A DNA stretch of 38,032 bases. It comes from Lachnospiraceae bacterium. GTDB taxonomy: Bacteria; Bacillota_A; Clostridia; Lachnospirales; Lachnospiraceae. The number at the start of each line of letters is the position of its first letter. Within the stretch, counting starts at the first letter, position 1. The notes under the pieces were generated by a model. That model had not been told where the DNA came from and did no database searches. It saw only the letters and a list, made by a program, of their open reading frames with translations. Below, piece by piece: positions 15,478 to 24,565 of this stretch. The stretch covers positions 1 through 38,032 of the forward strand of contig JAEEXJ010000018.1 in NCBI GenBank assembly GCA_016291475.1. Direction: 5' to 3'. Position numbers and translations under genes: made by a program.

Positions 15478-16556
15478 TTCACCGAAATGTAATCGGCTAA
15501 ATCCCTCCTTATAGCAGCATTTGTTCCGTAGTCATTAGTATAACCGATACGCAGTATCATTTGAATATTTTCTATATTAAGAGCTTTTTCAAGATTCGTT
15601 TTGTATACGGGTTCTTCAATAGCGTAACTCATGGGCTGGACAGAGATTCCTGCGTTTGTTAATGACAGCCATAGATTGACTGTCTGTATTCCGCAGGCTA
15701 TAAGTTCTTCCTCTGAATTTTCTGAAGTGATAATTACAAAACCGGAACAATTATCCAGCTGATTTTCAGCGGTTGTAATACCCTGCTCCGCAAAAGATTC
15801 TCCTGTAGCACTTTCATGAGTTGTAATGAGATAATAAATACTTTTTCTGAATCCGGTTATTCCCAGTTGCTCAGCGGGAAGGCCGTCTTTAGTGCTGATG
15901 GTTTCCGAGTTTGATAACCTGAGCCATTCCGATAATTCCTTGGCTGCGCGCAAATCACCGGCCTGAGCTATGTAAGCATTTAATGTGGCATTCTTTATAG
16001 CGGCAAATTCTGTGGTATCGGAAGAGTAATATTGAACCATATCTGAAACCGGATATGCGTTATTAAAAGATTCCGGTGTTAACTCCTCCGGTTTGAATTC
16101 TCTTTTATCTGTGTGGCGCTTAAGGATAAGATCAATTAGATCCTGATCCGTTGTTTCACTTGTTTTATGATAATTTAGTGAAATTTCCTTTAACTCATCA
16201 TTGTAACTTTGGGTGGTTTCGTAGCCATATGCTTTAAAGCTGTTCATAAGTGTCATGGTATAGCATCCGAGAGAAATATAGTTCTCCCTGAGAACCGGAT
16301 CTATGATATTCAGTGTTCTGTCAGGATCAATCTTTATTTTAATCATTTCCTGATCGGGATATACATCTATGATCCAGCTTTGGATGTTGTGTGAACTGGG
16401 AGCCAGGGATCCCAGGTACAGAATATCCTGTAATTCTTCACTGATCCCTGCAACGGATCTGTCTGTGTGGACATCTATTCTCCTTCCGCGGATCAGTAAT
16501 ACGGCTATGAGTACTAAAACAATTGTTACAATAAGGATCATAAATTTGATTTTCAT
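15474..16556 (-). CDS. Membrane-anchored Acg-type nitroreductase-like protein
   Basis: This protein of 360 residues has an N-terminal hydrophobic anchor (about residues 3-23, followed by RGRR) and a nitroreductase-like domain of the Acg/FMN-binding type. The start of that domain, ILYLGSLAPSSHNIQSW, matches the family motif that contacts FMN phosphate, and a second characteristic stretch, TNAGISVQPMSYAIEEP, lies near residue 315. The ATG at 16556 is preferred over the one at 16568 because GGAG lies six bases before it. In the usual topology of an N-terminal anchor the catalytic part would be outside or membrane-associated, which is unusual for a flavoprotein. It is the first gene of an operon with a TetR repressor and sits behind a strong promoter covered by a long palindrome. 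The substrate is unknown. Confidence 0.72.
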   Translation of the reverse strand: MKIKFMILIVTIVLVLIAVLLIRGRRIDVHTDRSVAGISEELQDILYLGSLAPSSHNIQSWIIDVYPDQEMIKIKIDPDRTLNIIDPVLRENYISLGCYTMTLMNSFKAYGYETTQSYNDELKEISLNYHKTSETTDQDLIDLILKRHTDKREFKPEELTPESFNNAYPVSDMVQYYSSDTTEFAAIKNATLNAYIAQAGDLRAAKELSEWLRLSNSETISTKDGLPAEQLGITGFRKSIYYLITTHESATGESFAEQGITTAENQLDNCSGFVIITSENSEEELIACGIQTVNLWLSLTNAGISVQPMSYAIEEPVYKTNLEKALNIENIQMILRIGYTNDYGTNAAIRRDLADYISVK

Positions 16557-16571
16557 AACTATCTCCATTTG

Positions 16572-16615
16572 ATTAATTGAACTATGGGTTTAATTAAACC
16601 AATAGTTCAATTAAT
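16572..16615. promoter_or_regulatory. Near-perfect 44-bp palindromic operator
   Basis: The 22-bp arms centred between 16593 and 16594 are complementary at 21 of 22 pairs, the exception being 16586/16601. The core is GGTTTAATTAAACC (16587-16600), flanked by ATTAATTGAACTAT and its complement ATAGTTCAATTAAT. It covers the spacer, -10 box and start region of the leftward promoter at 16593-16621. The length suggests two TetR dimers or two overlapping sites. Confidence 0.82.
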
Positions 16616-16621
16616 TGTCAA
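16593..16621 (-). promoter_or_regulatory. Promoter of the nitroreductase/TetR operon
   Basis: On the minus strand a perfect TTGACA (16621-16616) is followed by a 17-base spacer and TTTAAT (16598-16593), one mismatch from the -10 consensus. The 44-bp palindrome overlies it. Confidence 0.8.
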
Positions 16622-16675
16622 GAGATACTTAAGGGAGAATGATTAAATTTTCTTAAATCGCATTACCTCGTATGT

Positions 16676-21965: not shown

Positions 21966-22877
21966 ATGAAGCTTGGAGTTATATCTGATATACACAGCAA
22001 TTACATAGCGTTCAAAGAGTGCGTGAGGAAACTGGAAAAGGAAGGATGCGATGAGTATCTTTTTCTCGGCGACTATGTTTCCGATACTCCGTATACAAGA
22101 GAAACTCTGGATTTTCTTTATGAGTTTATTGATGATCATACTTGCTATCTTCTCAGGGGTAACAGAGAAGAGTACATGCTTTCTCAGAGAAAGGTATTAA
22201 AGGAAGGTTCGGAAGATCAGAAATGGATCTATAACTCTGCAAGCGGTAATCTGCTATATTCCTATGAATTGTTAACCGACAGGGATTTAGATTTTTTCGA
22301 AAGGCTTTCGATTTCTTTTGTCTATGAAAAAGAAGGTTATCCGACTATCAAATGCGGTCATGGTTCGCCTGAAAGTTCGAGAGAGTTGATACAACTCGGA
22401 AGCGACAGGGCGCGTTTTTGGCTGGATAATATTTCTGAAGATTATCTTCTTTGTGCACACACTCATTTTCCGGGTGAATATGAATATAACGGGAAGCATT
22501 ATATGAACTCCGGATGTGTGGGAATAGCAATTAACGATGCCGGCTTTGCACAGTGCATGATGCTTGATTCTTATAATGATGAAAATGGCGTGGCCTCTTG
22601 GAAGCCCACATTTTTGAAAGTTCCTTATGATAATCATAAGGTTGTAAAGGATATGATCACTACCGGATTGCTTGATAAGGCACCGTGGTTTATCAACAGT
22701 AATATACAGATCCTTTTGACGGGCACGGATAATTCGGCGGCAATGGTTGAGCTTGCGTCTAAACTATCCGAAGAAGCCGGTGCCCCCAAAGGCTGGCCGC
22801 TTATTAAAGAAGAGTTTTTTGAAGAAGCCGCCAAACGGCTTGGAATTCCTGATTACCGCAGCGTAGGTATCGAGTGA
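21966..22877 (+). CDS. Metallophosphoesterase, YfcE/YmdB-like calcineurin superfamily
   Basis: This 303-residue phosphoesterase has the full calcineurin-like metal set: D8 and H10 in ISDIHSN, D36 in FLGDYVSD, N66 with R67/E68 in GNREE, a CGHGSPES segment and the closing CAHTHFPG. The N-terminal domain is followed by about 90 residues at the C-terminus that are not part of the core. The start is fixed by the canonical MKLGVISDIH beginning. It has no ribosome binding site. Substrate is not predictable; relatives act on nucleotides, phosphodiesters or proteins. Confidence 0.87.
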   Translation: MKLGVISDIHSNYIAFKECVRKLEKEGCDEYLFLGDYVSDTPYTRETLDFLYEFIDDHTCYLLRGNREEYMLSQRKVLKEGSEDQKWIYNSASGNLLYSYELLTDRDLDFFERLSISFVYEKEGYPTIKCGHGSPESSRELIQLGSDRARFWLDNISEDYLLCAHTHFPGEYEYNGKHYMNSGCVGIAINDAGFAQCMMLDSYNDENGVASWKPTFLKVPYDNHKVVKDMITTGLLDKAPWFINSNIQILLTGTDNSAAMVELASKLSEEAGAPKGWPLIKEEFFEEAAKRLGIPDYRSVGIE

Positions 22878-22887
22878 CGAAGGTAAT

Positions 22888-23218
22888 AGACTGTAAGAAT
22901 CGCGGAGAGTTTGAAATTTACAGTCTTTGCTGGTTGGTAAAGCGGCGAAATTCTGGACTTGGACTGTAAAAGAGAGGGATTGATTGGTATTTACAGTCCC
23001 CACGGTCATTCAAAGTGATGAAAAGCTCGAATTGGACTGTAAAAGACGGGAAAAGGTTCGGATTTACAGTCCCTGTGGTCAAGCAAAGCGTTGAAATCTC
23101 ATATTTGGACTGTAAAAAGCGTGATAATCTTCAGCTTTACAGCCCCTTTCGCCTGAAACCACAGCTAAATCCTGTTCCGTGGCTATAAAATTCACCCCGG
23201 ACATAAAATTTATAGCCC
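22888..23218. repeat. Tandem array of five 73-bp units, each with a 39-bp hairpin
   Basis: Units start at 22888, 22961, 23034, 23107 and 23180, exactly 73 bases apart. Each has a 10-base left arm, 19 variable bases and a 10-base right arm (39 in all), then a 34-base linker. Units 2 and 3 have GGACTGTAAA ... TTTACAGTCC, unit 1 has AGACTGTAA ... TTACAGTCT, unit 4 has one changed base in the right arm, and unit 5 has GGCTATAAA ... TTTATAGCC. Stem bases change in compensating pairs (unit 1: outer G-C to A-T; unit 5: A-T to G-C at pair 3 and G-C to A-T at pair 6). The first three linkers share AAAG-N-G-N2-GAAA. Seventy-three is not a multiple of three and no coding frame is apparent. Together with the following dyad it fills most of the 590-base gap between the metallophosphoesterase and ychF. 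Confidence 0.85.
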
Positions 23219-23238: not shown

Positions 23239-23278
23239 CTATAATCCGTCACTAAACACTAAAAGTACGGGATTATAG
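23239..23278. repeat. Additional dyad after the 73-bp array
   Basis: CTATAATCC (23239-23247) and GGATTATAG (23270-23278) are perfect 9-bp inverted arms with a 22-base loop. It resembles the array hairpins in size but is out of the 73-bp register by about 14 bases and has a different arm sequence. Confidence 0.6.
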
Positions 23279-23467: not shown

Positions 23468-24565
23468 ATGAAACTAGGAATCGTCGGTCTTCCCAACGTA
23501 GGAAAGAGTACACTTTTCAATTCGATCACAAAGGCGGGAGCGCAGGCTGCGAACTTCCCCTTTTGTACCATTGATCCCAATGTAGGAGTTGTAGCAGTTC
23601 CCGATGAGAGGATCGAGAAGCTGGGAAAACTTTACAATACGAAGAAAGTTACACCCGCAACCATCGAGTTTGTAGATATCGCAGGACTCGTAAAGGGTGC
23701 GTCAAAAGGTGAAGGACTCGGAAACCAGTTCCTTGCAAACATCCGTGAAGTAGATGCAATCGTTCACGTAGTAAGATGCTTTGATGACGATAACGTTATC
23801 CATGTGGACGGAAGCGTTGATTCCATAAGAGATATCGAGACCATCAATCTGGAACTTATCTTTGCAGACCTCGAGGTTTTAGAGAAGCGTATCGCCAAGA
23901 CTGCAAAGACCGCCAGAATGGATAAGACCGCTGCCAAGGAACTTGATCTGCTTGAGAGATTCAAAGCTCATCTTGAGGCCAATAACGCAGCAAGAACTCT
24001 TGTTACGGAAGATGAAGATGAGATCAAGTATCGCAAGGAGTTTAACCTCCTTACCGACAAGCCCGTTATCTATGCTGCCAATGTAGAAGACGGCGACCTT
24101 GCGGATGACGGAGCAAACAACGAGAATGTAAAGAAGGTTCGTGAGTTTGCGGCTCAGGAAGGTTCGGAAGTATTCGTAATTTCTGCCAGAACCGAGGAAG
24201 AGATTTCCGAACTCGATGATGCGGAAAAGAAAGAATTCCTCGAAGCCATGGGACTTAAGGAATCCGGACTTGAGAAGCTCGTCAGAGCAAGCTATGATCT
24301 TCTCGGACTTATGAGTTTCCTTACCGCAGGAGAGGATGAGTGCCGTGCCTGGACCATTAAGAAAGGCACAAAGGCTCCTCAGGCAGCCGGAAAGATCCAT
24401 ACCGATTTTGAGCGCGGATTCATTAAGGCAGAGGTTATCAATTATCAGGACCTTCTCGACAATGGTTCCATCGCGGCTGCGAAGGAAAAAGGAATCGTTC
24501 GTATCGAAGGAAAAGAGTACGTTGTACAGGACGGAGACGTTATCCTGTTTAGGTTTAATGTATGA
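23468..24565 (+). CDS. ychF: Redox-regulated ATPase YchF (Obg family)
   Basis: This 365-residue P-loop protein is YchF/OLA1, an Obg-family nucleotidase that prefers ATP and is linked to ribosomes and oxidative stress responses. G1 is GLPNVGKST at the N-terminus, the switch region carries [12 protein letters not shown], and G3 is [18 protein letters not shown] coiled-coil insertion occupies about 130-200. The C-terminal TGS domain contains [19 protein letters not shown] and [12 protein letters not shown]. The length is normal. It has an AAGGAG site and its stop overlaps the start of lgt, so the two are co-transcribed. Confidence 0.97.

Follow-up and report, generated by a model that had tools for sequence, protein, structure and literature searches.

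Dispersed arrays of 73-bp inverted-repeat units with helically phased A+T content in a small clade of Lachnospiraceae

What keeps a row of inverted repeats at an exact spacing between two genes? The question is raised by a stretch of 38,032 nucleotides from a Lachnospiraceae bacterium (contig JAEEXJ010000018.1, positions 1 to 38,032, of assembly GCA_016291475.1; hereafter the window), in which five inverted repeats of 39 bp, at 22888-23218, recur every 73 bp on the 5' side of the GTPase gene ychF. The original prediction, made from the letters of the window alone, offered three explanations: a structured RNA, a cluster of protein-binding sites and a nonautonomous repeat. Our comparison with related genomes points to the DNA itself, and we consider that the array is probably, though far from certainly, one of a set of clade-specific, dispersed DNA scaffolds on which a two-fold symmetric protein would bend or wrap phased DNA, with a role in supercoiling.

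The 73-bp unit, its helical phase and its arms

The spacing is common to the family to which the array in the window belongs. When a free-period detector (periods of 40-130, a chain being at least three units) was run on the window and 40 further loci, 31 of the 34 chains found had a period of 73 and three one of 74, ten of the 41 sequences being without a chain. Consecutive spacings (n = 156) were 73 bp in 124 cases, 74 in 16, 72 in nine, 75 in one and another value in six. Of 195 arrayed hairpins, 179 have a gap of 21 bases between the 8-bp arms, 14 one of 22 and two one of 24, hairpins being accepted with at least seven of eight pairs, two wobbles and only one other mismatch allowed, a rule that misses strongly mismatched units and slightly favours wobbles. 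Units run head-to-tail within arrays. Single copies are rare: 65 hairpins were found in an 800-kb stretch of the related genome G401, chosen irrespective of arrays, and 58 of them belong to its eight arrays.

Within the unit, A+T content oscillates with a period of 10.43 bp, the seventh harmonic of 73 (mean of 116 units in 29 arrays; these come from 40 sequences, a unit being counted if another lay at a distance of exactly 73 bp, and convergent arrays were given an arbitrary direction). The seventh harmonic of the A+T profile is 0.868 and the next 0.312; with the arms masked the values are 0.351 and 0.091, and none of 5000 shuffles reached the masked seventh harmonic. Peaks of A+T lie near unit positions 9, 20, 31, 41, 51 and 62 and, less marked, near 71. 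Agreement in phase across the 29 arrays is high (R = 0.953), and since these arrays are partly related and do not represent 29 independent cases, kinship was addressed by clustering on unit similarity, which gave R = 0.985 for ten clusters and, for the linkers alone, 0.909 for 18 clusters. The array in the window shows the phase by itself (19 of 20000 shuffles were as strong), and the seventh harmonic ranks first in 16 of the 29 arrays taken singly. The best-fit period of a single unit is broad, at 10.3 bp with the arms masked and 10.75 bp with them.

The sequences that share this phase have little else in common, the identity of loops plus linkers between arrays having a median of 0.30 and reaching 0.68 in the best pair. 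At the A/T peaks 43% of the differences preserve the A/T class, as against 29% at fourfold sites of ychF, 26% and 34% in two smaller comparisons of the metallophosphoesterase gene and 28% at GC positions of the arrays; AA/TT makes up 48% of the steps at these peaks. Because the A+T phase is kept despite unrelated sequence, we read 73 bp as seven helical turns and the "variable" parts as constrained to be helix-phased DNA. The earlier description of conserved arms and variable loops holds in so far as most loci have loops and linkers that are hardly related to one another, but it overlooked the helix-phased A+T that they share. Loops and linkers would thus carry a DNA-level signal, which fits a curved or wrapped array.

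The arms fall into three types, A (GG[A/G]CTGTAA), B (GGCTATAA) and C (GGCTAATA and close forms), and in 191 of 196 units the left and right arms agree in type, whereas 2000 shuffles of right arms within arrays gave 146 such units on average and never more than 165; gap filling in this analysis recovered the hybrid unit of a sister array. Types differ by genome: B and C in G401, A and B in G415 and the window, all three in G414, and C in G417 and G426. Pair 6 of the arms is A-T in 106 units and G-C in 39, with no mixed pair (two T-A pairs came from spurious hairpins), and pairs 2 and 3 vary more freely, with 17 G.T, 15 A.C and nine A-T. The relatives therefore support what had been proposed from the window, namely selection on paired arms in a fixed geometry.

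Could the arms also pair across the 34-base linkers and so give two alternative folds, as had been suggested? Such folds are possible on paper, but the sites at which arm types change disfavour them: in 12 arrays the change falls on a linker, in two (L229 and L246) inside the 39-bp element, counts that were read from the rows, the raw tally being 15 and 5. Because the switches mostly fall at linkers, the 39-bp element is the coherent unit. A second, interleaved inverted repeat, formed by the loop motif CCTCAGAAAC and the linker sequence CTTCTGAGG/GCAACTGAGG, was seen in L216, L232, L235, L237, L249 and others; the corresponding palindrome CTTCTGAGG...CCTCAGAA is clear in some arrays only, and we rejected it as a general part of the array.

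The array in the window and its relatives

The five repeats of the window start at 22888, 22961, 23034, 23107 and 23180, exactly 73 bp apart, and the proposed architecture of a 10-base arm, 19 bases, a 10-base arm and a 34-base linker was confirmed. All lie on the plus strand as described here. Unit 1 (22888..22926, arms AGACTGTAAG / TTTACAGTCT), units 2 and 3 (22961..22999 and 23034..23072, both with arms GGACTGTAAA / TTTACAGTCC) and unit 4 (23107..23145, GGACTGTAAA / TTTACAGCCC) are of type A, and unit 5 (23180..23218, TGGCTATAAA / TTTATAGCCC) is of type B. The 34-bp linkers 1 to 4 occupy 22927..22960, 23000..23033, 23073..23106 and 23146..23179; by eye, the fourth is like linker 7 of the sister array L157 (see below) and unlike linkers 1-3. 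A search for GGACTGTAAA-N19-TTTACAGTCC with up to three mismatches gave four matches in the window, whereas 100 shuffles averaged 0.01, unit 5 being too divergent to match. The paired changes reported in the arms are present: the outer pair of unit 1 is A-T, and in unit 5 pair 3 is G-C and pair 6 A-T. So is the unpaired change in unit 4 (pair 3, A.C), but it is not the sole one, since the outermost pair of unit 5 is an unpaired T.C and the innermost pair of unit 1 is G.T, both of which had been missed.

The array begins (22888) 11 bases 3' of the stop codon of a calcineurin-like metallophosphoesterase gene of 303 aa (21966..22877, plus strand; Pfam PF00149, E 5.6e-17) and ends 250 bases 5' of ychF (365 aa; 23468..24565, plus strand; Pfam PF06071, E 1.3e-39), the next gene 3'. 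Between the array and ychF, off the 73-bp frame, a separate palindrome CTATAATCC...GGATTATAG (23239..23278, plus strand) was found by eye; its arms contain TATAAT, it occurs with a longer stem in the sister array L157, and it could be a terminator or promoter region for ychF. Elsewhere in the window, an abutting 38-base inverted repeat, 79% complementary, lies at 16556-16631, at the gap between two minus-strand open reading frames.

How widely is such an array distributed? A YchF search of 397 genomes from the family of a Lachnospira metagenome-assembled genome (MAG), which we took as Lachnospiraceae, led to one genus with 31 genomes. Two sister species carry an array at the same locus, each with eight units that are all at 73 bp: L157 in genome G415 (contig L087, JAGCUO010000152.1, a Lachnospiraceae MAG from yak rumen), with arms GGACTGTAAA and then GGGCTATAAA, and L161 in G401, with arms AGGCTAATAA and then TGGCTATAAA. 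In two array-bearing species (L159 and L160) a tyrosine-integrase-like sequence, read from the DNA, replaces the metallophosphoesterase gene 5' of ychF, so this site is variable.

A covariance model of the unit, built from 18 units and run on the 31 congeneric genomes, gave matches with E of at most 0.01 in five and none in 26. At most the best 150 candidates were scored per genome, and the counts are thus lower bounds: at least 57 in G415, 41 in G401, ten in G417, five in G414 and two in G426. In a ychF tree of the window and the 22 of the 31 genomes with a near-full gene, the window groups with all five array genomes in one clade (96/97 support; present in 96% of 200 bootstrap trees). That a single clade holds all array genomes makes one gain of the family the simplest history. 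In the genomes searched the array family is clade-specific, belonging to a handful of related bacteria from the gut or rumen. One linker family, ending in CAACTGAGG, is found in L217, L219, L238 and L244 with different arm types, genomes and orientations, which suggests past dispersal of arrays between loci.

Across the 397 family genomes, a pattern for type A and B arms separated by a loop of 12-30 bases had at most two matches per genome, in 54 genomes, and a backward control pattern gave similarly scattered matches. The pattern was limited to the arms GGCTATAA and GGCTGTAA, with GGCTAATA and GGACTGTAA, of type C, lying outside it. A first pattern scan of genome contigs found, among at least 118 stretches, one 73-bp array (L087) and two chains of other periods. 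Plasmid and phage collections gave no match, and viral contigs none to the type A pattern. Hairpin chains of other periods occur in unrelated bacteria (L088 5617-5862, period 82; L030 3669-3836, period 42), and GGACTGTAAA...TTTACAGTCC hairpins with short loops of nine bases occur, in no 73-bp arrays, in L004, L010 and others, which are rumen and gut Clostridia MAGs.

Position behind genes and competing explanations

Of 31 arrays, 26 lie in tandem gaps, four in convergent gaps and one (L243) possibly in a divergent gap. The raw list had 24, 5 and 2, and two arrays were re-read: that of the window, where the minus-strand neighbour is a spurious open reading frame and ychF is on the plus strand, and L233, which ends at a minus-strand ETF-alpha frame. 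The eight arrays of the 800-kb stretch of G401 comprise five tandem, two convergent and one flagged as divergent, at 136 kb, where the neighbour on the right is a short open frame that overlaps with the array. Divergent gaps account for 34 of the 169 gaps of at least 100 bp in that stretch, so about six of the 31 arrays would be expected in them. The genes 5' of arrays are varied and include those for a rod-binding protein, ETF alpha, PNPase, MsrA, a solute-binding protein, a symporter, tRNA-Leu and tRNA-Pro. At the solute-binding protein gene, an array of eight, eight, six and four units by reading (in G415, G401, G414 and G417) splits that gene from the next one, which in the array-less genome G423 starts 7 bases 3' of the stop codon; the loops at this locus are alike in G415 and G401, and the arm types differ. 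At this locus, an insertion between such tightly linked genes hardly resembles a series of strong terminators.

A row of hairpins that usually follows a stop codon recalls an RNA element, and the best of the rival explanations is that the arrays act in 3' untranslated RNA, slowing exonucleases or weakly terminating transcription, and are kept by selection on RNA pairing. Besides their position, the covarying arms and a U-rich tail in 25 of 147 units, against an A-rich head in 15, would be in keeping with this, as would the sense-strand bias of the loop motif and the T-rich bases past the right arm that are described below. So would unit 1 of L161 (L228 5275), in which an inner GC hairpin followed by six T reads like an intrinsic terminator; this unit is a possible ancestor of the array unit. 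Even so, only those 25 of 147 units have at least four U in six, as intrinsic terminators would. Selection on RNA pairing should clearly favour G.U, but in the 25 arrays with an assigned 5' gene (convergent arrays and loci with no resolved gene being omitted) the transcribed strand has 21 G.T/T.G and 16 A.C mismatches in 145 units, in 11 and 10 arrays, respectively; two of the 147 units (both L235) are a spurious alternative hairpin, before the removal of which the counts were 21 and 18. These counts are similar, so that G.U is not clearly favoured, though the test is small. Sense and antisense 39-mers fold equally well (-11.7 and -12.1 kcal/mol, p 0.43), Rfam has no family match in the window, only three arm types serve about 40 array places, a helical phase in the unpaired parts makes no obvious sense for an RNA, and the array that separates the solute-binding protein gene from its neighbour, against a distance of 7 bases in array-less G423, is not what this explanation would lead one to expect. 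A structured RNA as the main function is thus not supported by wobble counts, strand folding, Rfam or helix phase, and we hold it to be unlikely, although an RNA-level role may exist as a second function.

Are the arrays then the by-product of a selfish repeat, similar to REP or REPIN sequences, that is spread by a RAYT (Y1) transposase reading the hairpin as single-stranded DNA? Like such repeats they are extragenic, dispersed and hairpin-forming, and the Y1_Tnp proteins of the two array-rich genomes, G401 and G415, are alike by eye. The distribution of the transposase looks inconsistent, however: Y1_Tnp was found in two of the five array genomes and in seven of the 26 array-less ones, in genomes that may be incomplete, and the family hairpin is absent from 12 Y1 loci of about 2-3 kb. 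The GTAG/CGTC tag of REP is defined in PMC3733652; GTAG and CGTC occur in three and four of 147 units, about ten being expected by chance. The scarcity of single copies in the 800 kb of G401 also speaks against this spread, and we rejected Y1-driven mobility as quite unlikely. REP/BIME sequences are extragenic palindromes of 20-40 bp and the array units are 39-bp inverted repeats between genes, but REP/BIME units alternate in orientation and include many single copies (PMC2817692), whereas array units stand head-to-tail with few single copies. With BIME-2 in particular the arrays share extragenic rows of palindromic units, and they differ in their 73-bp period, large variable loops, typed and matching arms, lack of a GTAG/CGTC tag and apparent lack of a consistent Y1 transposase. 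A literature search, which saw largely the beginnings of abstracts and few subscription journals, did not recognise the array family as described; we regard the arrays as BIME-like and extragenic, with a seven-turn phase code that we did not find described.

A neutral tandem satellite would need no function at all. Template-switch (quasipalindrome) correction can keep palindromes perfect, and together with duplication of units it might produce arrays such as these, in which units are often near copies and unit numbers differ between sisters. It would not predict a common length of 73 bp and a common helical phase among arrays with nearly unrelated linkers, nor positions 3' of genes. Prokaryotic satellites are likewise tandem repeats whose unit length is constant; in one rumen archaeon, half or more of the long ones are non-coding, and the satellites there are said to be unrelated to one another (PMC6749651), whereas here many loci share geometry, phase and half-sites. 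We therefore regard a functionless satellite as very unlikely. Regular spacing with a variation of +/-1 is also a feature of CRISPR, but whole array units resemble each other and there is no near-identical repeat with unrelated spacers; the best and worst 28-base windows of the unit do not split into an identical repeat and an unrelated spacer, and PADLOC found no Cas match among the seven window proteins given to it. Finally, to a cluster of regulator sites controlling ychF-lgt, which the inverted half-sites and the position 5' of ychF had suggested, we give almost no credence, given that the same kind of array stands 3' of unrelated genes (those for PNPase, ETF alpha, MsrA, tRNA-Leu and others) and that few if any arrays occupy divergent gaps, where promoters face each other. 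The idea of a nonautonomous repeat or protein-binding array was the better half of the original list, but its specificity for ychF-lgt has to be dropped.

A proposed DNA scaffold

With no clear wobble preference and no strand difference in folding, we favour a DNA-level reading, which starts from what is observed in the genomes searched: geometry, phase, arm matching, the usual position behind genes and distribution in a single clade. In the proposed scaffold each 73-bp unit would make seven turns of the helix at 10.43 bp each, with blocks rich in A/T on one face and those rich in G/C on the opposite one, and would present two matching half-sites of 8-10 bp inverted about a dyad. A two-fold symmetric DNA-binding protein would recognise the matching half-sites and bend or wrap the phased DNA, and successive units would stack on one face to give a regular nucleoprotein array 3' of genes, which might hold or manage supercoils as proposed for gyrase-bound BIME-2 in E. 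coli. From sequence we infer that a protein binds, which protein it might be and that its role is topological.

Which protein could that be? Gyrase-like control of topology behind genes is the leading version of the scaffold, drawn by analogy, and as a specific claim it is rather improbable. Cleavage sites of E. coli gyrase are over-represented in BIME-2 and enriched 3' of highly transcribed operons, and the gyrase motif, which is degenerate, spans 130 bp, with a central part of 36 bp and flanks of 10.75-bp period, the phased G/C variation of about 10 bp being read as wrapping on the C-terminal domains of GyrA (PMC6379681; wrapping by gyrase is also discussed in PMC12393610). The seventh harmonic of the arrays has the phased G/C variation of about 10-11 bp over more than 100 bp that characterises strong gyrase sites. 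Compared with the motif as described, the arrays differ in that their phase runs through whole units and their half-sites are sequence-specific. That the arrays lie behind genes does not in itself prove gyrase, because the BIME-2 signals are reported to be independent of transcription and downstream regions to have no higher motif score (PMC6379681). An Lrp-type wrapper is possible by a similar analogy. For the LrpC and RemA sites of Bacilli, octamers are proposed to wrap DNA, and RemA protects AT-rich direct repeats of 7 bp spaced by 3 bp (PMC8481266). The sites of RemA in Bacilli differ in lying 5' of promoters, and we rejected RemA as array binder, its gene being found in one of the 31 genomes of the genus but not in the five with arrays, which may be incomplete.

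Several observations weigh against the scaffold. The candidate wrappers are not clade-specific: Lrp/AsnC (PF01037) is present in 28 of the 31 genomes and was discarded as an uninformative clade marker, and gyrase is presumably universal. The seventh harmonic is weak in some single arrays, ranking tenth or lower in three of 29, and two arrays (L243 and the one at 136 kb in G401) are perhaps in divergent gaps. Matching of arm types is stricter than independent half-sites need, and would also fit a hairpin being read. Lastly, there are asymmetries related to transcription: of 25 arrays, 15 have the loop motif CCTCAGAAAC on the sense strand and five on the antisense strand, five being undecided and some of the matches weak, and T exceeds A past the right arm, where it is also commoner than A is before the left arm. 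The strand bias of the motif and the T after the right arm may be relics of an origin from terminator hairpins, or mark a second role at the RNA level.

A bolder form of the scaffold, which we put forward tentatively, is that the type-matched arms and seven-turn units form a coded, nucleosome-like array that evolved once and was dispersed behind genes, on which a dedicated two-fold symmetric protein would assemble and wrap the DNA, while the code of the half-sites would change in concert from one species to another. If the scaffold is real, these bacteria would offer a natural, repeated and evolving substrate for bacterial DNA wrapping, at 30-40 loci in six related genomes, from the sequence of which helical phase and protein contacts could be read. 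It would also allow one to test the idea that BIMEs and other extragenic repeats serve as topological devices, and "compensatory" changes in the arms of a repeat need not mean RNA structure.
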